DNA from: a virus | Reading direction: 5' to 3' (one strand) | Length of the DNA: 42,093 bases | IMG/VR virus record: IMGVR_UViG_3300050343_000028 | Location: 1-42,093 of that record | In this document: piece by piece, positions 3,517-35,813 of the stretch | How the letters are laid out: each line of letters starts with the position of its first letter | How positions within the stretch are numbered: the stretch's first letter is position 1 | Notes under the pieces: generated by a model | The model's input: the letters and a program-made list of their open reading frames with translations, nothing else | Databases searched by the model: none | What the model was told of the DNA's origin: nothing | Program-made: the position numbers and the translations under genes

Positions 3517-5718
3517 ATGGCTACTTACGACCAGATTAGAGAAGATTCAAATCCATCTATGGATGAAGCAAAAGAAGAAGAAGTAATTTCTAATCTTGTT
3601 GCTCAAATTAATTCTAGGTTTCAACAATGTGAAACTACTAGAGAAGATGATGAAGATAGATGGCTACAAGCTTTCCATAATTACAGAGGAAGATATTTTA
3701 AAAATGTAGCTTTCAGAGACCATGAGAAATCTAGAGTCTTTGTTAAAGTAACTAAAACAAAAGTACTAGCAGCATATGGTCAATTGATTGATGTATTGTT
3801 TGGTGCAAATAAATTTCCATTAACTATTCAAGAAACTAGAGTACCTGAAGGTATTGATGAGTATGCTCATTTAAATCCATTAAAAGAACAAATGGGTATG
3901 AATCAAAATGAAGAACCTACTCCAGGTATTGAAGGTAATATGGATTATACTCCTGGTGAACCTATCATGCAACAATCAAATGGTGGGTTAGGTTTTCCTG
4001 GTGATGGAAATGATTTAGCTCCTGGTGCAACTTTCGGTTCATTAAACAATGATGCTAACTTAGGTTCTTTAGAAAAAGAATATGAAGAAGCAGACTTAAC
4101 TTCTGGACCAGCTCCAAGTCCTGAGATGCCTCAGATTAAACCTGCACAGATTGCAGCTAGAAGATTAGAGAAATTAATCTTAGACCAAATAGAAGAATCA
4201 AATGGAAGTGTAGAATTAAGAAGTGCAATCTTTGAAGCTTGTCTACTTGGAACAGGAATTATCAAAGGACCTTTTACTTATAATAAAACTTTACATAAGT
4301 ATACTGATACTGGTAATGGTAGAGAGTATGCACCTGAAACTGTTAAAGTTCCTAAAATGGAATTTGTTAGCATATGGGATTTTTATCCAGACCCTAATGC
4401 TAGAAACATGGAAGAAGCAGAATTTGTAATTCAAAGACATAGATTAAATAGAAACCAAGTTTTAGATTTAGCTAACAGACCTTTCTTTAACAAACAAGCA
4501 ATCATGGATTGTGTAAGAATGGGTGCTAAGTATAATAAGAAATCTTGGGAAACAGATATAGATTTAGAAAAAAGTCAGTACCCTGATATTGAATCAAATA
4601 GATTTGAAGTATTAGAATACTGGGGAACAATAGATGCTATGAGTGCTAGAGAAGAAGGTCTAGAACTTGATGAGTCTATTGATGACATGGAAGAAGTTCA
4701 AGTTAATGTTTGGATGATTAGAGATAAAGTAATTCGAATTGTTCAAAATCCATTTAAACCTTTTAGAACTCCTTATCAATCTTTTGTATATGAAAAAAAT
4801 CCATATACATTTTTTGGTATTGGTGTTCCAGAAAACATGGATGATGCACAACAGATTATGAATGGTCATGCAAGAATGGCAATTGATAACTTAGCATTAG
4901 CTGGTAATTTAATATTTGATGTTGATGAATCAGCACTAGCATCTAATCAAACTATGGAAGTATTTCCTGGTAAGATTTTTAAAAGACAAGCTGGTTCTCC
5001 TGGTCAATCAATCTATGGATTAAAGTTTCCAAATACTGCTGTAGAAAATATGCAGATGTTTGATAAGTTTAGACAACTTGCAGATGAATCTACAGGATTA
5101 CCATCTTACTCACATGGACAAACAGGTGTTCAATCTATGACAAGAACAGCATCTGGTATGTCAATGCTTATGGGTGCAGCATCATTAAATATTAAAACAG
5201 TAATTAAAAATATTGATGACCAATTAATTAAACCTTTAGGTGAAGCATTGTTCCAATGGAATATGCAATTCTATGAAGGTGACTTACCAATACATGGTGA
5301 CTTAGAAATTAAAGCAACAGGTTCTTCTAGTTTGATGAAGAAAGAAGTTAGAAGTCAAAGACTAACTATGTTCTTACAAACTGTACAGAATCCTGCTATT
5401 GCTCCATTTGTAAGAATGTCAGAAGTAATAAAAGAATTAGCTCACTCTTTAGATTTAGACCCAGCAGAAATTTTAAATACTAAAGATGAAGCAGAAATCT
5501 ACGCAAAAATAATAGGACAACAAAATGCTAACAAAGGAACTAGCCCAGAAGCTCCTATCCCTGGTGAACTCGGAGCAATGGGTGGTGATGGAGGAGTACC
5601 TCCACAAACTCCAGGAGCAAACAACCCTGGAAATGGCGAAAGCCCAATCGGACCTGGTAATACACCAATGCCAGGGGAGATGGAATTTACTGGACAGACT
5701 GAAGAACCTGCCCAATAA
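3517..5718 (+). CDS. portal protein (head-tail connector)
   Basis: 733-residue portal expected to form the dodecameric ring at the packaging vertex. Supporting evidence is its size, its location between terminase and scaffold/capsid genes, an N-terminal acidic helical start, and a long central body including the 'WDFYPDPNARNMEEAEFVIQ' region common in podovirus portals. Residues about 120-210 form a Pro/Gly/Asn-rich low-complexity insertion, and the C-terminal about 50 residues are also Gly/Pro-rich and probably disordered. It is longer than T7-type portals (about 535) and closer to P22-type size. It has its own promoter at 3454. Confidence 0.88.
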   Translation: MATYDQIREDSNPSMDEAKEEEVISNLVAQINSRFQQCETTREDDEDRWLQAFHNYRGRYFKNVAFRDHEKSRVFVKVTKTKVLAAYGQLIDVLFGANKFPLTIQETRVPEGIDEYAHLNPLKEQMGMNQNEEPTPGIEGNMDYTPGEPIMQQSNGGLGFPGDGNDLAPGATFGSLNNDANLGSLEKEYEEADLTSGPAPSPEMPQIKPAQIAARRLEKLILDQIEESNGSVELRSAIFEACLLGTGIIKGPFTYNKTLHKYTDTGNGREYAPETVKVPKMEFVSIWDFYPDPNARNMEEAEFVIQRHRLNRNQVLDLANRPFFNKQAIMDCVRMGAKYNKKSWETDIDLEKSQYPDIESNRFEVLEYWGTIDAMSAREEGLELDESIDDMEEVQVNVWMIRDKVIRIVQNPFKPFRTPYQSFVYEKNPYTFFGIGVPENMDDAQQIMNGHARMAIDNLALAGNLIFDVDESALASNQTMEVFPGKIFKRQAGSPGQSIYGLKFPNTAVENMQMFDKFRQLADESTGLPSYSHGQTGVQSMTRTASGMSMLMGAASLNIKTVIKNIDDQLIKPLGEALFQWNMQFYEGDLPIHGDLEIKATGSSSLMKKEVRSQRLTMFLQTVQNPAIAPFVRMSEVIKELAHSLDLDPAEILNTKDEAEIYAKIIGQQNANKGTSPEAPIPGELGAMGGDGGVPPQTPGANNPGNGESPIGPGNTPMPGEMEFTGQTEEPAQ

Positions 5719-5748
5719 TGTAAGAGACATAGTAAAATAATATTAGTG

Positions 5749-5777
5749 TTGACTAATATAATTTATATTGCTATAAT
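5749..5777 (+). promoter_or_regulatory. sigma70-type promoter
   Basis: TTGACT at 5749-5754, a 17-bp spacer and TATAAT at 5772-5777, in the short gap after the portal gene. The next ATG (5793) is preceded by AAGGAG. Confidence 0.65.
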
Positions 5778-5792
5778 TAAGCAAGGAGTAAA

Positions 5793-6101
5793 ATGAAAAA
5801 AGTAAAAGCAATTAAAATGGCTACAGGTGGATTAATGTCAATGCCACCTTATATCGCTAAACAAGATAAAACATCTGATGGTATTACACCTTATGATGTT
5901 AATACTCCTATGTCTGCTAGAAAAGGTTTACCTTCTAGAGCATTAGACAAATCAAGAACAAGATTTAATAAAGGTGGAGAAGCTTTCCCAGATTTAAGTG
6001 GTGATGGTGAAATAACACAGGAAGATATTTTGATAGGTAAAGGTGTGATTAAAAAAGCTAAAGGTGGAATAATGCAAAGAATGAAATTTGGTAGTAGGTG
6101 A
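5793..6101 (+). CDS. small virion-associated protein with EF-hand-like loop
   Basis: 102 basic residues. Three 'x-x-G-G' motifs (ATGGL near residue 11, FNKGG near 59, AKGGI near 90) recur in other presumed virion proteins of this window. Residues about 68-79 (DLSGDGEITQED) match a calcium-binding EF-hand/dockerin loop with acidic residues at positions 1, 5, 7 and 12. Its own promoter and an AAGGAG site support expression. It sits between portal and scaffold, so a head or decoration role is likely but unproven. Confidence 0.6.
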   Translation: MKKVKAIKMATGGLMSMPPYIAKQDKTSDGITPYDVNTPMSARKGLPSRALDKSRTRFNKGGEAFPDLSGDGEITQEDILIGKGVIKKAKGGIMQRMKFGSR

Positions 6102-6123
6102 TATTATTCAAGAAAAGAATTGA

Positions 6124-6779
6124 ATGGAAATTAGAAAAATGTTAAACAACTTGAAGCAAAAAAAGATTGGTGTTAAATTAACTGCCAAACAAGAACAAGC
6201 ATTAGAAGCTTATAAAGCTAAAGATAGAAAAGTAGAAATGGCAATCGGTGGAGCAGTAACAGAAAAGTATACTAGACAAAGACCAGAGTATCAAGCATAT
6301 GCTGAAGGTGATGTTGTTGAAGATGAAATGCCTGATGAAGATATGCCACCTATGGAAGAATTAAAAGTAGAAGAAGAATCTTTATTAGAACCAATGGGTA
6401 TGGATATGAAATGCCTATGGATGATGAAGAAGATATTACTGATGAAGACTTAGAAGGTATGGATGCTATTATTGATACTTCAGCTTTATCAGATGAAGAA
6501 GAACAACTATTAGATGAAGCAGTTGAGATGCATCCAGAACTAGAAGCTATCATTCCTAAATTAGTTGCAACAGAATTTACAGAAGATGGAGAAGTAGAAG
6601 GACCAGGAACAGGAACTTCAGACTCTATCCCAGCACTTTTATCAGATGGTGAATTTGTATTTACAGCCAAGGCAGTTAAGAATATTGGTGTAGACAAATT
6701 AAGAAAGATGATGAAACAAGCAGAAGCAGATTATGATGCTGGTATTCAATCTCAAGCAGAAGAGCAAGAGATAGTATAA
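6124..6779 (+). CDS. acidic head-region protein with GEFV motif (one frameshift)
   Basis: Two overlapping frames (6124-6453 and 6411-6779) read as one protein of about 217 residues if one base is restored near 6407. The first frame gives an N-terminal part with MAIGGAV and an acidic stretch; the second continues it with acidic residues and then SDSIPALLSDGEFVFTAKAV, a 'PAxLxxGEFV' motif also seen in tape-measure and other virion proteins. No -1 slippery heptamer is visible, so a sequence error is more likely than programmed frameshifting. Probably a head or scaffold-accessory protein. Confidence 0.55.
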
Positions 6780-6787
6780 AAGAATTT

Positions 6788-6844
6788 ATAGAGAAAGGTA
6801 ACTCTATGAATAGACAAGCTACCTTATAATAATTTTATTATAAG
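6788..6844 (+). other. two hairpins upstream of scaffold gene
   Basis: The first inverted repeat pairs 6788-6793 with 6802-6807 (6 bp). The second is a perfect palindrome, 6823-6832 with 6835-6844 (10 bp, 2-base loop). Neither ends in a clear T-run, so they may be RNA processing or stabilising elements ahead of the highly expressed scaffold and capsid genes rather than a terminator. The remainder up to 6905 shows nothing else. Confidence 0.4.
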
Positions 6845-6918
6845 CCCTTGTAGTTTCGTTTTAAACAAAAACACCTGCCTTAGCTACCTTCAGTTAAGAA
6901 GCCCTAAAGGAGGATACG

Positions 6919-7848
6919 ATGAGTAACAAAAACGAAGAAGGAAGACAAGAAGCCGAAGCAAACCCTTACAACAGAAAAAAATCTTGGCATACAGAAGATT
7001 CAATGCCACAAGATAGAACTTCTGCTGATGAAGGTTTGTTTGTGCCAAACCCTGAAAGTAATCAAGGTTTATCAAATGCTACTGCCGAAGGCAACCCAGA
7101 TGATAATACTGAGAATACTGATGCAACAATGGATAAGGTTCAAGAGTCTGCATTAAATGTAGAATCTAACCCTTATACAAAAGTTGATTATAAGAAAAGA
7201 TATGACGACCTAAAACGATATTATGATAGGAAGTTAGGTGAATGGAACAGCAAGGAAAGTGACCTTAAAGTTCAACTTAAAGAGAACAGACCTGTTTACC
7301 AACCACCAAAATCGAAAGAAGAGCTTGAAGCTTTTAAAAACGATTATCCTGACATTTATGGAGTTGTGGAAACTGTATCTCACTTACAATCGCAAAATGA
7401 AGTTAAGTCGTTACAAGACGAGTTAGAAAGTTTAAAGAAAGCAAATACTACTTTGCAACAAAAGGAAGCTGCACTTGAACTTTCAAAATATCATCCTGAC
7501 TTTGAAGAAATAAAAGAGTCTGATGATTTTCATAACTGGGCAGATACTCAGCCAATGGAAATTAAAAACTGGATATATGAAAACAACTCTAATGGAGCAT
7601 TAGCTGCACGAGCAATTGACTTGTATAAGAAGGACCGAGGTCTTGGACTTGATAAAAAAACTACGAAGAAACAACCTAAGAATGAAGGTGCAGACTTGTT
7701 GGTTAAAACTAACGAACAAACTCAAGTACCTGATTCTAAAGAACCTTTCTTCAAAAGGTCTGATATTCAAAGATTATCAGATGCAGAGTTTATGAAATAT
7801 GAAAAAGATATTTTAAAAGCTCAAAGAGAAGGTAGAATTATAGATTAA
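6919..7848 (+). CDS. scaffolding protein
   Basis: 309 residues, highly charged, with a disordered N-terminal about 90 residues and a central coiled coil starting at 'DYKKRYDDLKRYYDRKL', typical of phage scaffolds that direct capsid assembly and then leave. It lies directly upstream of the major capsid gene. A strong AAAGGAGG ribosome binding site precedes the ATG. The C-terminus is Lys-rich and helical, as needed for binding the inner capsid surface. Confidence 0.85.
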   Translation: MSNKNEEGRQEAEANPYNRKKSWHTEDSMPQDRTSADEGLFVPNPESNQGLSNATAEGNPDDNTENTDATMDKVQESALNVESNPYTKVDYKKRYDDLKRYYDRKLGEWNSKESDLKVQLKENRPVYQPPKSKEELEAFKNDYPDIYGVVETVSHLQSQNEVKSLQDELESLKKANTTLQQKEAALELSKYHPDFEEIKESDDFHNWADTQPMEIKNWIYENNSNGALAARAIDLYKKDRGLGLDKKTTKKQPKNEGADLLVKTNEQTQVPDSKEPFFKRSDIQRLSDAEFMKYEKDILKAQREGRIID

Positions 7849-7893
7849 TTCTATTTTCATTTTTATCAACAACTAAACAAAGGAGTAACTACA

Positions 7894-8841
7894 ATGGCTA
7901 AATTCGCTGGTGGTTCAACATATAACTTTGGATTAGGTGTTTCAGGTCAAACTAATGGTTTTTTCATTCCTGAAATCTATTCAAAGAAAGTACAAATAGC
8001 TCTAAGAAAAGCTGCAGTAGCAGAAGCAATCTGTAACACAGACTACATGGGAGAAATCTCATCTTTCGGTGATACTGTTAACATTATCAAAGAGCCTCAA
8101 ATCGCAGTAGCAGACTACACAAGAGGTCTGGCTGTAACATCAACTGACTTAACTGACCAAGAACTTGTTCTAACTGTAGACCAAGCTAAATCTTTTTCAT
8201 TTAAGATTGATGACCTAGAGAAGAGATTCTCTCATATCAACTTCCAAGCTATAGCTTCAGACAATGCTGCTTATGCGTTAAGAGATGCAATGGATAGTAA
8301 TATCTTAGCAGCTATTAATGCTGGTGCAACTGTAACTACAGGCATGGGAACTACTTCAACTCCAATTGATATTGGATTTGGAAGTGGTGAAGTTGACCCT
8401 CTAAACCAAATGGCATTAGCTGCTAAAGAATTAGATGAAGCTAACGCACCTGAAGATGGAAGATGGTTTGTCGCTGCACCTGAATGGTACAACGCACTTT
8501 CTAACTCTTCTTCTAAACTTTTATCAGTAGACTTTAATGCTGGTCAAGGTTCAATCAGAAATGGTTTAGTAGCATCTGGATTACTTAGAGGTTTCCAAAT
8601 GTACAAATCAAACAACCTACCAACTAATGACTTATCTGGTGCTTCACCTGCTGGTTCAGCAACTGCACCTGTAGCTCTATTCGGTCACATGAGTTCAACT
8701 GCTGCTGCGTCAAGCATGAACAAAGTGGAAACTGTTAGAGACACAGGTACTTTCTCAGATATCGTTAGAGGTTTAATGGTATGGGGAAGAAAAGTATTAA
8801 GACCAGAAGTAGCTGGTAAAATTATCTACACAATAGATTAA
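7894..8841 (+). CDS. major capsid protein
   Basis: 315-residue shell protein, most likely of the HK97 fold: N-terminal segment, 'FIPEIYSKKVQIALRKAAVAEAI' helix, a long alternating beta region, and the terminal 'GRKVLRPEVAGKIIYTID' strand. It follows the scaffold gene, has a good AAAGGAG site, and is followed by a possible terminator, the usual arrangement for the most abundant phage protein. Codon use looks favoured for expression. Confidence 0.9.
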   Translation: MAKFAGGSTYNFGLGVSGQTNGFFIPEIYSKKVQIALRKAAVAEAICNTDYMGEISSFGDTVNIIKEPQIAVADYTRGLAVTSTDLTDQELVLTVDQAKSFSFKIDDLEKRFSHINFQAIASDNAAYALRDAMDSNILAAINAGATVTTGMGTTSTPIDIGFGSGEVDPLNQMALAAKELDEANAPEDGRWFVAAPEWYNALSNSSSKLLSVDFNAGQGSIRNGLVASGLLRGFQMYKSNNLPTNDLSGASPAGSATAPVALFGHMSSTAAASSMNKVETVRDTGTFSDIVRGLMVWGRKVLRPEVAGKIIYTID

Positions 8842-8857
8842 TTTTTAATACACTATT

Positions 8858-8883
8858 GGGTGGGGGTAGTAATATCCCCATCC
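8858..8883 (+). terminator. weak hairpin terminator after capsid gene
   Basis: GGGTGGGG (8858-8865) pairs with CCCCATCC (8876-8883), 8 bp including one G-U, with a 10-base loop. Only a short T-rich stretch follows (TCTTATT), so termination would be partial, lowering transcription of downstream tail genes. Confidence 0.5.
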
Positions 8884-8902
8884 TCTTATTAGGAGAATAA
8901 TT

Positions 8903-9028
8903 ATGATAGACAAAATTAAAATACAATTAAAATGTTTACTAGATGATGCTAAACACTTTTGGATGTTTCATAGAAAACTTTCATTAGGTATTATAGCAGG
9001 TCTTGTAATCTTATGGATATTAATATAG
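8903..9028 (+). CDS. small single-span membrane protein
   Basis: 41 residues with an AGGAG site. A charged N-terminal helix is followed by a hydrophobic C-terminal span (about residues 27-41: SLGIIAGLVILWILI). It would sit in the inner membrane with a cytoplasmic N-terminus. No homologue recognised. Confidence 0.5.
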   Translation: MIDKIKIQLKCLLDDAKHFWMFHRKLSLGIIAGLVILWILI

Positions 9029-9039
9029 GAGACAACAAT

Positions 9040-9183
9040 ATGCCAATGAAAAAAGCAATGCCTGGTGGAAAAATAACAAACAAAGGCAAATACAAACATG
9101 GTGGAAAAGTTCACCGAAATAAAAAAGGTCATGGTGGAGTAATGACTATAGTACTTAAAAAAGATAAAACTAAGAAAAAATAA
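9040..9183 (+). CDS. small Lys/Gly-rich basic protein
   Basis: 47 residues, about one third Lys, with repeated Gly-Gly motifs (MPGGK, KHGGK, HGGV). Similar short basic proteins sit next to capsid genes in marine phages and could bind DNA or be minor virion components. Start chosen at the first ATG after GGAGA. Function unknown. Confidence 0.5.
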   Translation: MPMKKAMPGGKITNKGKYKHGGKVHRNKKGHGGVMTIVLKKDKTKKK

Positions 9184-9185
9184 TA

Positions 9186-9458
9186 ATGGGTATAATGTCT
9201 TCACCTGCTTGGACTCGTAAAGAGGGTAAGTCTAAATCTGGAGGACTTAATGCTAAAGGTAGAGCTTCTTATAATAAAGGTCGAACTAAGACTGGTAAGA
9301 AAAGAAATCTAAAAGCACCAAGTAAGGTAGTCGGCAATAAAAGAAGAAAAAGTTTTTGTGCAAGGATGAAAGGTATGAAGAAAAAACTTACCTCTAAGAA
9401 AACTGCAAGAGACCCTAATTCAAGAATTAATAAATCACTAAGAGCATGGAACTGTTAA
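9186..9458 (+). CDS. basic protein of the 'SPAWTRKEGK' (DUF6321-like) type
   Basis: 90 residues, strongly basic. The segment SSPAWTRKEGKSKSGGLNAK and the ending 'RDPNSRINKSLRAWNC' are characteristic of a small conserved phage family that I recall as DUF6321. The name is from memory and not verified. Role unknown; nucleic-acid binding is plausible from charge. It ends just before the tail tube gene. Confidence 0.65.
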   Translation: MGIMSSPAWTRKEGKSKSGGLNAKGRASYNKGRTKTGKKRNLKAPSKVVGNKRRKSFCARMKGMKKKLTSKKTARDPNSRINKSLRAWNC

Positions 9459-10220
9459 ATGGCTAAAACTTATCTATCAATGACAAACGAACTACTGGTT
9501 GAAATTAATGAACCAGAAGTAACAACAGTATCAGGAGCATTAGGTATACAAAAGTTTGTATCTAATTGTGTTAACAGAGCTTACTTTGATATAGTAGATG
9601 CAGTAGATGAATGGTCTTGGCTAAAAACTGCAGCACCTCAAAATGATTATTATGGTAATACATTTGTTGAAACTGTAGCTGGACAAAGATGGTATCTAAT
9701 GAAAGCTGGTTCAACTGATGTTGATACAGATTATGATTCAGTTAACTGGGATGATTTTACTTTAACAACAGAAGGTGTTACAGGTAAGTCTGCTCCACAT
9801 ACAATTAATAAATTATCATTTACAACTTTATCAGCATGGAGACAAAACTATGCTGCAAATGAAGAAGCAAGTAAAGCTAACACACAAACTTATGCAACAC
9901 CAGTAAGAGTATTAAGAAGTTCAGATGGAAGAAGATTTGGATTATCTCCAATACCTGATGGTGTATATAGAATTTATTTCTTTGCTTATAATAGACCTGC
10001 TGAATTAACAAATGATACAGACAAAGTATTATTTCCTGAACAGTACAAACCAGTTTTACTAGCAAGAGCTAGATATTATATTTATCAATTTAAAGATAAT
10101 ATTGCACAATCGCAATTAGCTTTAGATGAATATAAAAAAGGATTACAAAATATGGCTGACCAATTAAACTCTCCTCAACCAGAGTATATGTCAGATGTAA
10201 GATTTACATATTTATATTAA
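9459..10220 (+). CDS. tail tubular protein A (T7 gp11-like adaptor)
   Basis: 253 residues, downstream of the capsid and directly before the large tube protein B, the standard podovirus order. The mainly helical N-terminus (LSMTNELLVEINEPEV) and the pattern 'FVSNCVNRAYFDIVDAVDEWSWL' fit the adaptor that joins portal and nozzle. It starts immediately after the upstream stop. Confidence 0.8.
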   Translation: MAKTYLSMTNELLVEINEPEVTTVSGALGIQKFVSNCVNRAYFDIVDAVDEWSWLKTAAPQNDYYGNTFVETVAGQRWYLMKAGSTDVDTDYDSVNWDDFTLTTEGVTGKSAPHTINKLSFTTLSAWRQNYAANEEASKANTQTYATPVRVLRSSDGRRFGLSPIPDGVYRIYFFAYNRPAELTNDTDKVLFPEQYKPVLLARARYYIYQFKDNIAQSQLALDEYKKGLQNMADQLNSPQPEYMSDVRFTYLY

Positions 10221-10230
10221 GGAATAAACT

Positions 10231-12033
10231 ATGCCAACTCAAGGAGCTTCTATTACAGTACAAGGTGGCTTGGATTTAATTTCAAGTTCTCATGCTTTAT
10301 TTAGAACACCTGGAGCTGCAACTAAATTACAAAATTTTGAATCATCTACAACAGGTGGTTATAGAAGAATAAGTGGTTATCAAAAACTAGGTACTACAAG
10401 TGCAGTAATTCCTTCTGGTGTATCAACAGATATTATTCATGGTATATCAGGATATGCTGATGGAGTTATAGTAGCTCAAGCCGATGATTTATATTTTAGT
10501 ACTACAGGTACTTCATATGTTAAAATAAATAAAGATACTTTTACAACAGCTACTGGAACAGTTTCAATTAGTTCAGGTTCACCAACAGTAACAGGAACTA
10601 ATACAGTATTTACTTCTGAATTTATTGTAGGTGATGATATAAAAATTGATGGTAACTTTTATAAAGTATTATCTATTACAAGCAATACTGTTTTAACATT
10701 AGATACTAATGCTAATACTGGCAGTACACAAAATGGTTTAACTTTTTATAAAGGTGGTATTATATCAAGTGCTTTAGCTTCAGCAACTACAATACCTAGA
10801 ACTAATCAAACTAATCTACAATTTACAAACTTTGAATCTTATGGACAAAATGGTACATTATATTTTGTAGATGGAAATAATCGTATTGGTGAATTTTTTA
10901 TTGATAATAATAATAAATATCACTTTGAAGAATTACATAGGTCTTCTCCAGTAGGTTGTTCATTAATTGAAAGATATGCTGAAAGAATAGTAGTATCAGG
11001 ACAAGCATCTAATCCTAGTTTAGTATATTATAGTACTAGATTAAAGCCTTATGATTTTGAAGGAGCATCTGCAGGATTTGTAGATGTAGGAGATATAGTA
11101 ACAGGTATTAAAGTATTTAGAAACAGCTTAATTATATTTTGTAAAAATAGTATATATGAGTTGACAAACCTTGATTCTACACCTATAATCAAATCAGTAA
11201 CTAAAAATATTGGTTGTATAAGTGGTAACTCAATTCAAGAGATAGGTGGAGATTTAATCTTCTTAGCACCTGATGGATTAAGAACAGTTGCTGGTACAGC
11301 TAGAATTGATGATGTCGAATTAAGTTCTATATCTAGAAAAATTTTACCTTTAGTAAATGATATAATTAATAACTTTGCTAATTACACTCTTTCTAGTATG
11401 GTAATTAGAGAAAGAAGTCAATACAGATTATTTTATTATCAATCTGGTCAAGCAGCTTCTGGACAAAAAGGAATTATAGGAACATTTAAATATAATGCAG
11501 AAGGGATTCCTTCATTTGAATGGAGTGAAACTAAAGGACTTCCTGTAAAATTTTGTACCTCAGATGTTAATAACAATGGTACAGAAACTTTATTTCATAC
11601 AGATGAAACAGGTTATGTTTATCAACATGATACTGGCAACAGTTTTGATGGTTCAAATGTTGAAGCAGAATTTCAAACACCAGATATGGACTATGGTGAT
11701 AATGGTTTAAGAAAAAGTTTATACAAAGTAAAAACTAATATTGAACCTGAAGGAACTCAAAACGATTTAAATTTAAGAATTAGATATGATTTTGAAAGTA
11801 GTGAAGTACCTCAGCCAGGAAATTTTGCTGTAGGTAATTTAAGTTCAGCTTCATTATTTGGTACTGCAGTATTTGGTACAGCAGTTTTTGGTACAACAAC
11901 ATTACCAAGTAAAAGTGTATTAGTAAATGGAAGTGGATTTTCTAATAACTTTAAATTTTTTAGTAATGATACTAATGCACCATATTCAGTAAATGGAATG
12001 TTTGTTTCATTCATAGCAGGAGGAAGAAGATAA
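10231..12033 (+). CDS. tail tubular protein B (T7 gp12-like nozzle)
   Basis: 600 residues, beta-rich, following protein A. Central motifs such as 'RYAERIVVSGQ' and 'ITGIKVFRNSLIIFCKNSIYEL' are typical of podovirus tail nozzle proteins with a beta-propeller platform. Expected to form a hexameric tube end that carries the fibres. A perfect-consensus promoter lies inside the gene at 11161. Confidence 0.82.
   Translation: MPTQGASITVQGGLDLISSSHALFRTPGAATKLQNFESSTTGGYRRISGYQKLGTTSAVIPSGVSTDIIHGISGYADGVIVAQADDLYFSTTGTSYVKINKDTFTTATGTVSISSGSPTVTGTNTVFTSEFIVGDDIKIDGNFYKVLSITSNTVLTLDTNANTGSTQNGLTFYKGGIISSALASATTIPRTNQTNLQFTNFESYGQNGTLYFVDGNNRIGEFFIDNNNKYHFEELHRSSPVGCSLIERYAERIVVSGQASNPSLVYYSTRLKPYDFEGASAGFVDVGDIVTGIKVFRNSLIIFCKNSIYELTNLDSTPIIKSVTKNIGCISGNSIQEIGGDLIFLAPDGLRTVAGTARIDDVELSSISRKILPLVNDIINNFANYTLSSMVIRERSQYRLFYYQSGQAASGQKGIIGTFKYNAEGIPSFEWSETKGLPVKFCTSDVNNNGTETLFHTDETGYVYQHDTGNSFDGSNVEAEFQTPDMDYGDNGLRKSLYKVKTNIEPEGTQNDLNLRIRYDFESSEVPQPGNFAVGNLSSASLFGTAVFGTAVFGTTTLPSKSVLVNGSGFSNNFKFFSNDTNAPYSVNGMFVSFIAGGRR
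11161..11189 (+). promoter_or_regulatory. sigma70-type promoter inside tube protein B gene
   Basis: TTGACA at 11161-11166, a 17-bp spacer and TATAAT at 11184-11189, all within coding sequence. It would give extra transcripts for the fibre genes downstream. Match is perfect, but function is unproven. Confidence 0.45.
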
Positions 12034-27125: not shown

Positions 27126-30100
27126 ATGGCTGAAGAAAATCAACTAAGTCTTTCTAACTTAGAGGGTGTTACTCCTTCTACTTCTCAAGAAACTACTCAA
27201 ATAAATAATGAATTATCATTATCTAATTTAGAAGGAGTTGAAACTGATGTTGTTTCAAATGATTTAAGTTTACAAAATTTAGAAGGAGTTACTTTTACTA
27301 AAACTCCTGAACGAACACCTATCAAAGTTGAAGGAATATTACCTCAGTATACTGATGGTAGTATTGATAGAAAATTTCTTATTGATACTAGTGAACCAAC
27401 AACTAAAGAAAAAATTGCTTATGGTTTAGATAAACAAAATATGTTTTTTGGAAATGTATTTCGTGTAGCTAAAGCAGGTTTGTCTGCTGCTTTTGACCCT
27501 AATAAAGAATTTGAAGAAATAGCCTTAGAAAATGCTGCTGTTGAAAAAGCAGAATTATATAAAAGACATGAAAAATTTAAAGGTGGAAAGTATGATGATG
27601 ATATAGAAGTACTTGCTGCAGAGATGGCAACTTTTCTTGTTGACCCTTATTATCTTTTTATGTATGCTACTCCTTGGGGAAGAGCAATGTCAATGAGACA
27701 AACAGGATTTAAAGCTATGGCAAAAGTAGCTGGATTATCTGCAGGTACTGTTTCATTAGATAAATTATTTGATAACTTAGCTACAACAGGTAAAGCTAAT
27801 CCAGCAGATGTAGCTTTAGCTGGGGGAGCTGCTGGTCTATTAGGACCTGCATCTATGAAAGCTTTTCAAATTATAGGTAAGTTATTACCTAAAGCTGATA
27901 AAGGAAAAATAGCACAAATAGTAGAAGTTATTGATGGTAAAACTCAAGCACAACTTGGAGTGTCTAAAGCTGAGTATAGAACTTTACAAAAAATTGCAGG
28001 AGATAAAGAGTTCTTAAAATTAAATCAACAACTTAAAAAAACAGAAACAACTTCAAAAACTTTAATAAGTAATCAAGCTAAACAAGAAAAAGAATATCTT
28101 CAATCTGTTTTAAAAATAGATAAAGACATAGCAAAGTTAAAAGCAGATAGAAAACTTATTAAGAGTGATGTTGTTGGTTTAATAGATAAAAAGAAAGCTA
28201 CCAAAAGTATTTCTAAAAAAATTGCACAGATTAAAAAAGCTGAAGAAGCAAGAAAAAAAGCTTTTAATAAAGCACAAACTGAATTATGGAAAAAAAATTC
28301 TTTAATATCTAAAAAAGTAATAGATGAAACTGTTAAAAGAGATGTACAGTTTTTAGAAAAATTATGGAAAGAAAAAGGATTAACAGAAAAAACTGCACAA
28401 GTAGTTTTATCAGCTAGTATTAGACCTTTAATGGGAGCTGCTACTGGTTATGGTTTTGGTAAACTTTGGGGTCCAGATGATGCAAATTTAAATAATTGGA
28501 TGTTAGTCGGTGCTTCATTTGGAGGTATATCAAAAGGAATACAAGCTAGTAAAACATTACCAGGACAATCTAAAAATATGATACAAAGATTATTGTATCA
28601 AGATGCAACTAAATTTACTTTTCAAAAAGTTAGAGAATTAACATCTACTACTACTTCAACTAAGTTAGCTGCAATAGGAGGAGAAACAGAAAAGATAGGA
28701 TTACAATTATTAGAAGGAATAGATAGTTCATTTGCAAAAAATTCTGTAACACAAAGAGCAGAAAATTTGTTACAAACATGGAGATTAAGAACAGCTAATG
28801 TTAATAAACCTTATTCTTTAGATGAACAAGCTTTAGCTTTATCAGTTATAAGAGGTTCAAAAGCTAAAGTAAGTAATCGAGTAAAAACTCTTGCAAGTAA
28901 ATTAGAAAAAGAATTACAAGATTTTAAAAAATTAAGAGAAGAAGCTGGTATATTTTCTTTAAATGAAAAAACTGGGAAATTAATAGACATAAAAAATTAC
29001 TTTCCAAGAGTATATGATTTTAGTAAAATTAAAGAAGACCCTAAAAAATTTGAAAAAGTATTAATTAGTATATATAAAAGCTTAGGACAAAGTGATAAGA
29101 ATGCAAAGAGTAGTGCAATGAGTTTTGCTAAAAGTTTACAAAATGCTGATGATAGTGTTATTAATAAAGAAGCAATTAGTGATTATGTTCAAGGTATTAC
29201 TAAAAAAGTAGGAGTATTAAAAAATAATCCTTTAAGTGAACATATTACAAAAGCTAGAATACTTGAAGGACCTTATGCTAAAGTAGAAAAAGTATTAAAT
29301 GACAATGGATATTTAGTAAACAATGCTAATGATGTACTATTTAATTTATATAATCGTTCTATGAAATCAATTGCATTTGCTGAGAAGTTTGGTAATCAAG
29401 GACAAATGTTAAAACCATATTTAGATAGCATTGTTCAAAAATATAAAGATGCTGCAGGAAAACAAATAGGTATTACAAATGAAAACTGGAAAGCTAAAGC
29501 TAGAGCTGAAATAGATTTAGTAATGAATACTATTGATGGTTATTTTGGTAGGTATGGTACAAAACAACTAGGTGTTAGTAAGTCAATAGCTGGTACACTA
29601 GCAACAATATCTAATTTAAATATGCTAGATAGAGTTACTATAGCTTCACTTGGAGATGTAGTTCAACCTTTTGCTAACTCTAATAATTTATTATCTTTTA
29701 TTAAAGGAGCAACACGAACAGCATTAACAAATAGAAGAGAAACAGGTTTAGCAAAAAATTTAAATCAAAATTTAGAAAATGAAATTCGTGCATGGTTAAA
29801 AAGTACAGGTAGTAAAACAACAGATAAACTAAATAGAAGTAAATTATCTTCTACTTTAGGAGATGAAGCAGTTTTAAAATTTGATGATGCTACTCAAGCA
29901 GCTAATGTTATGGGTGAAATGGGTACTTTAAGAAAAGTAAATGAATTTGGTTTTAAAATTATGGGTTTACAATGGTTAACTGGATTAGCTAGAAGATATG
30001 CATATAATGTTGGAGCAGTTGATGCATATACAAGTGCAAGTAAATTATCTAAATTTGTAAGTGCAGGAGGTAAAATTAATTCTAGTAAGGGATTAAAATT

Positions 30101-32237
30101 AGTTAAAGATTTAAACAAATATAGTATTGATGTTCAAGATGGTTTAAAACTAGGTTCGTTTAAAAATTTTGATGATGCTATTGTAGATAAAACAAATAAA
30201 AAAATTTTAAATCAATCAGGTCTTCTTGCAGCAAATAGAGATGCATTAATACCTCAAGTACAAAATAGATTATTATTTGCTCAAAGTAGAAATCCTTGGG
30301 TTAGATTGATGGGTCAATTTACTTCTTGGGCTATGGCAAAATCAGCACAAACAAATAAAATTTTACAAAGAATTGAAAATGGAGAAGCTAAACAAATGGT
30401 AAAATTATTAGCTGCTTTACCTGTATATGGTGGTATTCAAATGTTGAGAGAATTAGCTAAGGATGGAGAAGTTATTACTGACCCTGCTTATAATGAAGAT
30501 AAGTGGTGGGCTGAATCATTAAGATTATCAGGTATGTCAGGAATACTTCCTGAATTAGTTATAGGTAGATTAACTGGACCAGGTTCAAGACAACCATGGT
30601 TTATTCCTTTTCCTGCTGCTAGTGTTGCAACTGATGTAGGATTAATAGGAAAGGATGTTTTAAAAGGAGAAACTGAAAAAGCTACAAGAAGATTTTGGGA
30701 AAAAATTGTACCTTTTCCTACTTATAGAAAATGGTTAGTAGATTTATTTAGTGGTGTAGAAAGAACAAGAACATATAATAAAAGTAATGTAGATAGTAGC
30801 AACAATGTAATTAAACCTCAAAAGTTTTCAGATGGAGGTGCTGTATTTAGAAGAAAAAAATATGCTGCAGGAGATTTAGCTTTATCTAATTTAGAAGGAG
30901 TTAATGTTTCAAAAATTAATACAAGTCAACTTACTAATAATGATAAATATATTGTTGGAGATAATTTAAATTATGATTTAAATTTTAAAGAAGAAAAAGT
31001 AATAGAAAAAAAACCTATGAATAAAAAAAAATTAACCACAGTAGCTAGTGCTGCAGTAATGGCTGCGACAGGAGCAACAGCAAACATAGATAATGAAGTA
31101 AATAACTATATTGATAAAATTAAAAAGTATGAGGGAACAGGGAAAGTTATTATCATTGATGGTAAAAAATATTTTAAAAATTATAGATTAGGAGATGAAG
31201 AATTTATTACAAGTGGTTATGGTTTTTACAATAAAGATAATAAAGAAGATGGAATGGTTTCTGAAGAACAAGCTAATAAAGATTTAAAAAATAATATTAA
31301 ATTAAAATTAATTGAAACTAAAAAAAATATTAAAAACTTTGATAACTTATCTGATAATTTAAAAAAGAATATAGTATCATCTTGGTATAGAGGTTCATTA
31401 TCAGGTAGTCCTAAAACTATTAAATTAATTAATGAAGGAAAATTTAAGGAAGCAGCAGTTGAATTTTTAAATAATGTTGAATATAAAGAAGCAGTTAAAT
31501 CAGGTTCAGGTGTTGCTAAAAGAATGGAAGATGTTGCTAATGCAATTAAAATGGAAGCACTACAAAAATTTAATATAGGTGGATTAGCTGCAAAATTAGC
31601 AACAAAAGCAATTAGTAAATATGGAGTTAAGAGAGGTGATACAGCAATATCAACTACAGTAGGTACATATAAAAAAGTTAATAAAATATTTGATGATGCT
31701 AATGTTAAAACTGTACATGATTTTGGTTCTGGTTTAGGTTTAGGTTCAAAAGAATTTACAAATAAAATTGTAACTAATCACGAACCTTTTGTTCCATTAG
31801 AAAAAATTATAAAAGTAAAAGGTAAAGTACCTGATTATAAAACAGCAGATGATGTTATATTTAAAGAAGGATTTGCATCTAAAGATGGTGTTGTTAATGC
31901 TAATGTATTAAATGTAATTGAAGACCCTATGGAAAGAAGTAATGTTGTTAGACAAATATCACAATTAATAAGTGATAAAGGTATGGCTGTTATTACAACA
32001 AGAGGTAGTGAAGTTACTAAAGCAGCCCAAACTTCTAAGAATGCTACACCATTTAATGATGGTTGGATATTTGGTAAGGGAGATAAGAAAACTTTTCAAA
32101 AAGGATATAGTCAAAAAGAATTAGAAGAATATATTAAAAGTATCTTAGGTGATAAATTTAAAGTAGAAAAAATTCCTAGTAAATATAAAATAGGAACATC
32201 AGGAGTAATTATTAAAAAAATAAAAGGAGATAAATAA
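27126..32237 (+). CDS. giant polyvalent virion protein: ejection part, lysozyme and methyltransferase-like domains
   Basis: 1703 residues, intact. Residues 6-55 hold three 'LSLxNLEGV' repeats and a fourth copy is at 1250-1259. About 130-1230 is a helical, partly coiled-coil ejection-protein body (e.g. NPWVRLMGQFTSWAMAK). A 'KFSDGG' motif (about 1233) precedes the fourth repeat. Residues 1298-1320 look like a signal peptide (MNKKKLTTVASAAVMAATGA), followed by a GH24-type lysozyme domain: E1336 (KYEG), GYG at 1364-1366 and RMEDVAN at 1466. After 'KFNIGG' (1481) comes a Rossmann-type methyltransferase-like domain with motif I DFGSGLGLG (1532-1540) and VLNVIEDP (about 1594). It probably enters the host with the DNA and cuts the wall; the target of the methyltransferase is unknown. 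Confidence 0.75.
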   Translation: MAEENQLSLSNLEGVTPSTSQETTQINNELSLSNLEGVETDVVSNDLSLQNLEGVTFTKTPERTPIKVEGILPQYTDGSIDRKFLIDTSEPTTKEKIAYGLDKQNMFFGNVFRVAKAGLSAAFDPNKEFEEIALENAAVEKAELYKRHEKFKGGKYDDDIEVLAAEMATFLVDPYYLFMYATPWGRAMSMRQTGFKAMAKVAGLSAGTVSLDKLFDNLATTGKANPADVALAGGAAGLLGPASMKAFQIIGKLLPKADKGKIAQIVEVIDGKTQAQLGVSKAEYRTLQKIAGDKEFLKLNQQLKKTETTSKTLISNQAKQEKEYLQSVLKIDKDIAKLKADRKLIKSDVVGLIDKKKATKSISKKIAQIKKAEEARKKAFNKAQTELWKKNSLISKKVIDETVKRDVQFLEKLWKEKGLTEKTAQVVLSASIRPLMGAATGYGFGKLWGPDDANLNNWMLVGASFGGISKGIQASKTLPGQSKNMIQRLLYQDATKFTFQKVRELTSTTTSTKLAAIGGETEKIGLQLLEGIDSSFAKNSVTQRAENLLQTWRLRTANVNKPYSLDEQALALSVIRGSKAKVSNRVKTLASKLEKELQDFKKLREEAGIFSLNEKTGKLIDIKNYFPRVYDFSKIKEDPKKFEKVLISIYKSLGQSDKNAKSSAMSFAKSLQNADDSVINKEAISDYVQGITKKVGVLKNNPLSEHITKARILEGPYAKVEKVLNDNGYLVNNANDVLFNLYNRSMKSIAFAEKFGNQGQMLKPYLDSIVQKYKDAAGKQIGITNENWKAKARAEIDLVMNTIDGYFGRYGTKQLGVSKSIAGTLATISNLNMLDRVTIASLGDVVQPFANSNNLLSFIKGATRTALTNRRETGLAKNLNQNLENEIRAWLKSTGSKTTDKLNRSKLSSTLGDEAVLKFDDATQAANVMGEMGTLRKVNEFGFKIMGLQWLTGLARRYAYNVGAVDAYTSASKLSKFVSAGGKINSSKGLKLVKDLNKYSIDVQDGLKLGSFKNFDDAIVDKTNKKILNQSGLLAANRDALIPQVQNRLLFAQSRNPWVRLMGQFTSWAMAKSAQTNKILQRIENGEAKQMVKLLAALPVYGGIQMLRELAKDGEVITDPAYNEDKWWAESLRLSGMSGILPELVIGRLTGPGSRQPWFIPFPAASVATDVGLIGKDVLKGETEKATRRFWEKIVPFPTYRKWLVDLFSGVERTRTYNKSNVDSSNNVIKPQKFSDGGAVFRRKKYAAGDLALSNLEGVNVSKINTSQLTNNDKYIVGDNLNYDLNFKEEKVIEKKPMNKKKLTTVASAAVMAATGATANIDNEVNNYIDKIKKYEGTGKVIIIDGKKYFKNYRLGDEEFITSGYGFYNKDNKEDGMVSEEQANKDLKNNIKLKLIETKKNIKNFDNLSDNLKKNIVSSWYRGSLSGSPKTIKLINEGKFKEAAVEFLNNVEYKEAVKSGSGVAKRMEDVANAIKMEALQKFNIGGLAAKLATKAISKYGVKRGDTAISTTVGTYKKVNKIFDDANVKTVHDFGSGLGLGSKEFTNKIVTNHEPFVPLEKIIKVKGKVPDYKTADDVIFKEGFASKDGVVNANVLNVIEDPMERSNVVRQISQLISDKGMAVITTRGSEVTKAAQTSKNATPFNDGWIFGKGDKKTFQKGYSQKELEEYIKSILGDKFKVEKIPSKYKIGTSGVIIKKIKGDK

Positions 32238-32238
32238 T

Positions 32239-32670
32239 ATGCCATTTGAAATGATAACAATGCTAGGCTCAACTGTACTCGGAGGAGTAATGAGTATATG
32301 GTCGCAAAGCATTAAAGCAAAACAAGCAGAACAAAAGATGCTTATACAAAGAGCCGAAGTACAAACTAAAGCTTTTAAAGAAGCAAGAGAATATGACAAC
32401 AAAGGTTTTCAATGGACTAGAAGAATCATAGCATTAGTTGCTGTGTTTGCTATAGTACTATTACCTAAACTAATGCCTGTACTATCACCAGATACAAGTG
32501 TGATTGTAGGTTATTTAGAATTTAAACCTTCATTCTTATTCTTACCAGAAAAAGAAATAATGAAATGGATAACACTATCATCTAATAGTCTAGTAATAAC
32601 ACCATTAGATACTAACTTAGTATCAGCTATTATAGGACTATACTTTGGTGGTTCGTTAGTTAAGAAATAA
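32239..32670 (+). CDS. membrane protein, possible holin
   Basis: 143 residues. N-terminal hydrophobic segment (about 3-20), a charged helix (about 22-55), a strong span (RIIALVAVFAIVLLPKLMPV, about 61-80) and a weaker C-terminal one. The pattern and position right after the lysozyme-bearing gene suggest a holin or related lysis protein. AAAGGAG upstream. I cannot assign a family. Confidence 0.5.
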   Translation: MPFEMITMLGSTVLGGVMSIWSQSIKAKQAEQKMLIQRAEVQTKAFKEAREYDNKGFQWTRRIIALVAVFAIVLLPKLMPVLSPDTSVIVGYLEFKPSFLFLPEKEIMKWITLSSNSLVITPLDTNLVSAIIGLYFGGSLVKK

Positions 32671-32739
32671 TATGATAACAATAACAATACTAAGCTTATT
32701 AATAGGAGTATTAATATAATTAATATATGAGGTGTCATT

Positions 32740-35288: not shown

Positions 35289-35439
35289 TTTCTTTCTTTC
35301 CATGACAAACTTCATATGAAGCATTACAATTTTTACAACTGTAATTACTTACAAATAAATATTCATCATTGTCATATACATCTTCAGCATCAAAATCATT
35401 ACCCCAAAGTACATCACCATTACAAATAAAACACTTCAT
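35281..35439 (-). CDS. small zinc-ribbon protein
   Basis: 52 residues. Cys pairs CFIC (3-6) and CKNC (35-38) frame an acidic linker, the usual layout of a two-pair zinc ribbon; a further Cys at 45 follows. Start ATG at 35439 overlaps the speD stop (TAATG). Small zinc ribbons like this occur in early regions of marine phages and may bind nucleic acid or a host protein. Confidence 0.65.
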   Translation of the reverse strand: MKCFICNGDVLWGNDFDAEDVYDNDEYLFVSNYSCKNCNASYEVCHGKKENE

Positions 35440-35813
35440 TATTTTACCTCTATAAAATTAGTTTCTCTATCGAAGTATTTATACTCAACAGTTATAGGTT
35501 TAAACTCTTCTAAACAATCTATAACATCTGCTTTCTTAAATTCTTTACATGAATAAACATCTAATTGAATTAACGCAGGTTGTTGTTCATCCCAAGTATG
35601 AATACTAATATGTGATGTATCTATAATAGCAACACCACTTAATCCTTTGTTTCCTTTCTTAGAAACTTGTGAAGAATAAGGACCTGCAAGTATATTCATA
35701 TCAATTGTTTTAATTAATTTTCTCATCCAAGAAATAGTTTCTTCTTCATTCTTAGGTGGGTTTTGTACCTCTGCTCTAATTAGTAGGTGCTTGTGTTTCA
35801 GTTCTTTTTCCAT
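35439..35813 (-). CDS. speD: S-adenosylmethionine decarboxylase (SpeD family)
   Basis: 124 residues, full length for the prokaryotic single-gene type. The processing and active site are recognisable: T66-S67-H68 followed by ISIHTW (H72) and the later C89 (DVYSCKEF). S67 is expected to become the pyruvoyl group by self-cleavage. It makes decarboxylated AdoMet for spermidine synthesis; no spermidine synthase gene is seen here, so the host must supply it, or the enzyme has shifted to decarboxylate arginine or ornithine as some SpeD homologues do. The start overlaps the upstream nuclease by 38 bases. Confidence 0.85.
   Translation of the reverse strand: MEKELKHKHLLIRAEVQNPPKNEEETISWMRKLIKTIDMNILAGPYSSQVSKKGNKGLSGVAIIDTSHISIHTWDEQQPALIQLDVYSCKEFKKADVIDCLEEFKPITVEYKYFDRETNFIEVK

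Follow-up and report, generated by a model that had tools for sequence, protein, structure and literature searches.

A methyltransferase domain borne as an optional cassette on a predicted virion protein of an HTVC103P-type marine podovirus

To our knowledge, only a few injected phage effectors are known so far, mostly from model phages. Among the described systems closest to the locus analysed here are the polyvalent phage proteins with lysozyme and methylase domains, which include DarB, the virion DNA methylase of phage P1 (Iyer et al., 2017; PMC5512222). These are large multidomain proteins encoded in a late or structural context, uniting lysozyme and effector enzymes and proposed to enter the cell with the DNA, and their methylases are DNA adenine methylases of the DarB type (PMC5512222). 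In phage T4, ten N-terminal residues of the internal protein IPIII suffice for head targeting, and the protease gp21 cleaves after the sequence L/I-X-E (PMC9026906). The HTVC103P-type phages possess HMO-2011-type morphogenesis genes, with group III genomes of 30.8-34.0% GC (PMC8528129). In the open-access literature we found neither virion proteomics of HTVC103P-type phages, or of any carrier of the methyltransferase treated below, nor a paper on a virion lysozyme-methyltransferase fusion.

The stretch of DNA analysed (the window; all 42,093 nucleotides of IMG/VR virus record IMGVR_UViG_3300050343_000028) has a GC content of 31.8% and encodes an SU10-type portal, a phage capsid protein and a terminase large subunit. 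Judged by gene order and sequence, the window phage is a relative of HTVC103P type; HTVC103P was isolated on a SAR11 strain, and the window phage is probably a marine podovirus with SAR11 as its host. The open reading frame P0001 (27126..32237, + strand) runs from the ATG at 27126 to the stop codon at 32237 with zero internal stops and encodes a multidomain protein of 1703 amino acids, composed of a body, a muralytic domain and a methyltransferase; the unbroken frame and the residues E1336, GYG (1364-1366) and DFGSGLGLG (at 1532), all reported in an earlier note made from the sequence, were recovered at those positions. Its full-length relatives, HTVC103P gp52 (67% identity) and HTVC104P gp54, share with it the body, the methyltransferase (61-62% over the domain) and the gene position, but have a body-methyltransferase-muralytic order and another hydrolase, and are annotated as hypothetical proteins. 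The best explanation is that P0001 is the last large protein of the late operon of an HTVC103P-type marine podovirus. The next gene (32239..32670, +; phrog_38283) encodes a 143-aa protein with hydrophobic stretches and follows the tail of the protein on methyltransferase-plus as well as methyltransferase-minus contigs.

The reading that we favour, and regard as reasonably probable, is that P0001 would be taken up into the virion, in the head or close to the portal, and exit with the DNA, that the hydrolase of its tail would open the cell wall, and that the methyltransferase, whether it stays fused or forms a chain of its own, would reach the cytoplasm and at the start of infection methylate a host or defence component, namely RNA, a protein, a small molecule or a modified DNA backbone, rather than a DNA base. 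The exchangeable enzymes would be joined to the tail through KFxxGG linkers. Packaging, injection, catalysis, target and timing are those that we infer as most likely, with the tail entering or touching the cell together with the DNA.

The C-terminal region (31584..32234, +, with motif I at 31719-31745), in which the earlier note had recognised a SAM-binding motif, is confidently predicted to adopt a class I SAM methyltransferase fold of the Rossmann type. AlphaFold2, supplied with a 39-sequence alignment of the domain (residues about 1490-1703), returned a model with pLDDT 90 and pTM 0.86, for which Foldseek found 707 PDB chains at E <= 0.001. The best 50 of these 707 are all methyltransferases or structural-genomics proteins of methyltransferase fold; the top matches within them are an uncharacterised methyltransferase, Trm9, glycine sarcosine N-methyltransferase, METTL6 and the peptide N-methyltransferase CypM. 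Methyltransferases of tRNA, small molecules and peptide N-termini are the closest solved folds among these 50. At the sequence level, residues 1481-1703 gave no credible match in PDB and a weak match to Methyltransf_23 in Pfam. Motif I is present in 39 of 39 family members, the D-G-G, E-P, N..V.NV and FQKG motifs are near-invariant (38-39 of 39), and the invariant columns include T26, T31, Y35, D52, G54, G56, E73, P74, R124, R146 and Q178-K179-G180. The domain is under purifying selection (median dN/dS of 0.25 in 43 close pairs).

By sequence comparison, the closest named family is TIGR04096, the Dnd-associated putative methyltransferase, which is matched by 36 of the 39 diverse phage members (best E 1.1e-10). 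The window domain matches it with E 5e-10 and 38.7 bits, well short of the curated threshold of 150 bits, and is best described as homologous to TIGR04096 and not as a member. Cellular relatives matching TIGR04096 share the TFQKG motif with the phage proteins. The phage domain corresponds to part of the 478-aa model, and in the phage genomes covered the neighbours of the methyltransferase genes are phage late genes, with no dnd gene seen among them. PADLOC assigned no dnd model to the domain; its mad2 model (MADS system) did not match the window domain and weakly matched 11 of the 39 members. A scan of 84,980 genomes returned six loci, half of which are phage-like contigs in metagenome bins and the other half distant relatives, and cellular members may be missed in this count because the scan used one narrow pattern; a cellular origin of the family, which was also considered, is not supported by these loci.

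These data bear directly on the idea, put forward in the earlier note, that the enzyme modifies incoming DNA. Protection of the phage DNA through base methylation would have a precedent in the virion-borne methylase DarB of phage P1 (PMC5512222), the nearest named family is associated with DNA phosphorothioation, and there are the weak mad2 matches; we nevertheless judge it unlikely, because neither [DNS]PP[YFW] nor PCQ, sought as motifs of DNA amino- and C5-methyltransferases, occurs in any of the 39 members and the nearest solved folds, among the best 50 of 707, are those of tRNA, small-molecule and peptide methyltransferases. Nor was a DNA-binding or SWI2/SNF2 partner domain seen in the tail. 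In the favoured reading a host or defence component may be the target, and the kinship with TIGR04096 leaves room for one possibly linked to phosphorothioate defence, as the family name suggests; the distant tie to the Dnd-associated methyltransferase, itself named only as putative, could help to explain both enzymes.

The comparison with polyvalent effector proteins drawn in the earlier note is apt in concept, since a muralytic domain and a methyltransferase, two different effector-type domains, lie on the one protein. By this analogy P0001 may conceptually be considered a polyvalent virion protein, with a type of methyltransferase that differs from the DarB-type DNA adenine methylases; a TIGR04096-like methyltransferase was not found in the text of PMC5512222.

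The lysozyme (31083..31565, +; residues about 1320-1480), which the earlier note had called GH24-like, is divergent, and its assignment holds through its relatives. The window copy matches PF00959 with E 0.03 and 15.1 bits, below the gathering score of 22.3 bits, whereas that of locus L010, about 49% identical to it, passes Pfam (E 2.9e-7), and relatives about 48-55% identical to the window lysozyme form one family with it. In addition, over its C-terminal 80 residues the window lysozyme shares ~45% identity with the lysozyme domain (IPR023347) found at the N-terminus of Vibrio N4-like virion RNA polymerases, and Vibrio phage proteins, one of them from a zobellvirus, match its C-terminal half at 64-70% identity. 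P0001 thus resembles the Vibrio N4-like protein (Schitoviridae) in having a related lysozyme domain on a giant protein annotated as virion-borne, but there the injected activity is an RNA polymerase instead of a methyltransferase. The catalytic Glu (E1336) and TSGYG are kept in close relatives, L043 having TSGFG, and the placement of the catalytic Asp in the window lysozyme is uncertain. Right before the lysozyme, and hence mid-protein, the translation contains a signal-peptide-like hydrophobic segment, MNKKKLTTVASAAVMAATGATA (31017..31082, +), which was likewise observed in L168 and L169; in L162, a different sequence of similar character precedes a glucosaminidase-like module.

The body (27306..30818, +) is putatively of the ejection type, that is, an internal virion part, an assignment that follows from gene position and helical character. 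It is conserved in 16 aligned relatives, and its AlphaFold model is mostly helical, with a pLDDT of 54 that makes it too poor for a fold search; homology to T7 gp16-like proteins was sought and zero matches were obtained in PHROGs or in a PDB sequence search. Upstream of it, the N-terminus carries three LSLSNLEGV repeats (27144..27290, +). Copies of this nine-residue element (LxLSNLEGV) start in the window at 27144, 27213 and 27264, and a fourth, ahead of the lysozyme, at 30876; the repeats are also present in L001, L043, L022, L051 and L040, with three copies at most in the N-terminus. They may possibly represent a docking peptide. In HTVC103P, L043 and L040, the late copy stays right before the lysozyme module despite the opposite module order.

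Short glycine linkers separate the modules: KFSDGG (30822..30839, +) lies between the body and the muralytic module, and KFNIGG (31566..31583, +) forms the 5' boundary of the methyltransferase cassette, where blocks of identity to several relatives start (31564-31622) and where L168 and L169 have an empty site. The pattern KFxxGG or KMxxGG recurs at domain borders of these virion proteins in many loci. FxxGG occurs at 2.5 times expectation in methyltransferase-bearing ORFs vs 0.69 times in other ORFs, counts that are not independent because the methyltransferase-bearing ORFs are partly homologous. Two small portal-adjacent proteins of the window (5793-6101 and 6124-6453) also contain KFxxGG/KMxxGG. 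An internal translation start at the linker, with a Shine-Dalgarno sequence formed by the GG codons, was considered and rejected, these codons being mostly GGTGGT; the linker nucleotides are GGTGGT or GGTGGA, and the methyltransferase linker of the window therefore contains no GGAGG internal ribosome site.

The methyltransferase is an optional part of the protein, absent from L168, L169 and L163. The DNA of L168 is 92.8% identical to the window over 30440-31568 and 89.8% over 32217-32677, and the two matching blocks are adjacent in L168, rejoining just before the stop codon, so that this contig lacks the methyltransferase segment and no other part of the region. L169 shows the same empty site with flanks of 83% and 90% identity. 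The segment absent from both is exactly 31569-32216, and the ends of the cassette lie within A-rich sequence. Identity to the window rises abruptly at 31564-31572 in L014, L016, L022 and L025, at 31617-31622 in L015, L019 and L023, and at 31149, inside the lysozyme, in L008-L012. In L010, the methyltransferase is 98% identical in amino acids (dS 0.09) and the body 43% (dS 0.73); in L043, the body is 72% identical and the methyltransferase, which here precedes a lysozyme of the same family as that of the window in reversed module order, about 61%. These contrasts between methyltransferase and body show recent module exchange. Naturally occurring sister genomes that have or lack the cassette are a ready comparison for finding the target of the methyltransferase.

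The sharp shifts in identity to single relatives near 31.15 and 31.57 kb could also arise if the window had been misassembled from two phages, with the junction near the lysozyme. This is highly improbable: L168 backs the join of body and lysozyme at 93% identity, the lysozyme-methyltransferase order is found in L008, L009, L010 and L012 from separate samples, and the isolates HTVC103P and HTVC104P carry the body plus the methyltransferase as well. The clean loss of the domain, which leaves its neighbours undisturbed, and its position between other domains in the middle of the protein in some phages would be compatible with a non-catalytic SAM-binding or structural virion module. Such a role seems decidedly improbable to us, as the SAM-site and other motifs are near-invariant from podoviruses to T4-like phages, and the optional presence of the domain speaks against an essential structural function.

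A search with the body that was blind to the methyltransferase yielded 80 loci, 62 of them non-redundant with a complete tail. The methyltransferase was found in the tail or in the next ORF in about a quarter of these (15/62), on either side of the hydrolase depending on the tail, and in this body-based sample the fused form is commoner than the separate one. Pfam, applied to 50 tails, detected glucosaminidase in 25, Phage_lysozyme in 11, Phage_lysozyme2 in three and Pesticin in two; 11 of the 62 tails are shorter than 100 residues, too short for an enzyme. As most tails are muralytic and 15 of 62 loci have the methyltransferase, the hydrolase is the usual function and the methyltransferase an accessory one, and the tail would be a docking site for exchangeable enzymes. 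Stop codons split the methyltransferase from the body in L014 and L019, and the lysozyme-methyltransferase part in L009, so the methyltransferase may work as a separate protein.

The same methyltransferase domain, at roughly 30-60% identity, was found in otherwise unrelated phages. In Roseobacter phage CRP-3 it lies inside a large protein encoded between the portal and coat genes, beside a PF07486 cell-wall hydrolase and DUF7178; Myrna gp97 and its counterpart in Phabba carry it two genes upstream of the major head protein; other podovirus contigs have it as a small ORF that separates terL from portal, Microcystis phage MJing1 as a small ORF within the late genes, and phage LS06-2018-MD07 as part of a giant multidomain protein. 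Among the neighbours of methyltransferase genes in phages other than the HTVC103P type, 17 of 55 match portal proteins in PHROGs, and others match the terminase large subunit and major head proteins; in the neighbour-distance analysis the label 'HTVC103P-body' is unreliable because its query included the methyltransferase, and the distances alone were used. In the T4-like contigs L100 and L101 (181 and 259 kb), a gp21-like protease is followed in order by scaffold, capsid, three genes, the methyltransferase and a kinase-like protein, where protease, scaffold and kinase were named from translations and PHROGs matched the major head protein and the head maturation protease. The methyltransferase of both contigs starts with MKIQELFE|S, which fits the L/I-X-E rule of gp21, as in T4 internal head proteins, whose short N-terminus ends in L-x-E (PMC9026906); unlike these, P0001 is without a targeting N-terminus and the window phage is not T4-like. 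Capsid-targeting-like N-termini were counted in 10 of 33 proteins of three T4-like loci vs 0.33 expected and in 0 of 78 from other phages, the pattern having been defined post hoc.

The methyltransferase might instead be made late and act in the infected cell or at lysis, its fusion to a virion protein being incidental. The separate ORFs of L014 and L019, the separate lysozyme plus methyltransferase of L009, and the genes that come next (a small gene with hydrophobic stretches in the window, an amidase by reading in L014) are in line with late action; it is nonetheless unlikely in our view, considering the repeated independent siting by portal, terminase and capsid genes, the capsid-targeting-like start in the T4-like contigs, the prevalence of the fused form in the body-based sample and the linker of the window without a GGAGG site. 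Delivery with the virion is supported, at the level of sequence context, by the muralytic tails, the kinship with the lysozyme of virion RNA polymerases, the portal and capsid neighbourhoods and the N-termini of the T4-like members; the last, downstream of a capsid gene, give independent support for packaging and injection. Because the same family adjoins head or portal genes of many unrelated phages, the methyltransferase is likely to be an injected weapon against the host, and its conservation there, together with its clean swapping in pelagiphages, suggests a shared step early in infection. Extending this, we tentatively suggest, at somewhat less than even confidence, that the family is largely phage-specific and virion-delivered, that it has spread as a cassette among marine podoviruses, mycobacteriophages and T4-like jumbo phages, and that it may methylate a host or defence component, possibly phosphorothioate-linked, in the first minutes of infection.

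Several further observations concern the genes around these methyltransferases. In L100/L101 the kinase-like protein, so named by reading (6546-7160), starts with MKIQELLNE directly after the methyltransferase, and the pair may be a small group of injected effectors. The 374-kb contig L103 contains (4382-11772) a series of small genes whose N-termini resemble T4 capsid-targeting sequences, lying around a methyltransferase-bearing protein; by reading, the series includes proteins of Dps-like and deaminase-like type, and a nucleotidyltransferase-like gene sits immediately upstream of it. A toxin-activating lysine-acyltransferase is annotated among the late genes of a pelagiphage (HTVC115P, L003 2542-2991). 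Finally, the window encodes an S-adenosylmethionine decarboxylase (35439-35813, - strand; PF02675, E 3e-16) that would use the same SAM pool as the methyltransferase of P0001; the annotations of HTVC103P, HTVC104P and HTVC115P include this gene as well.
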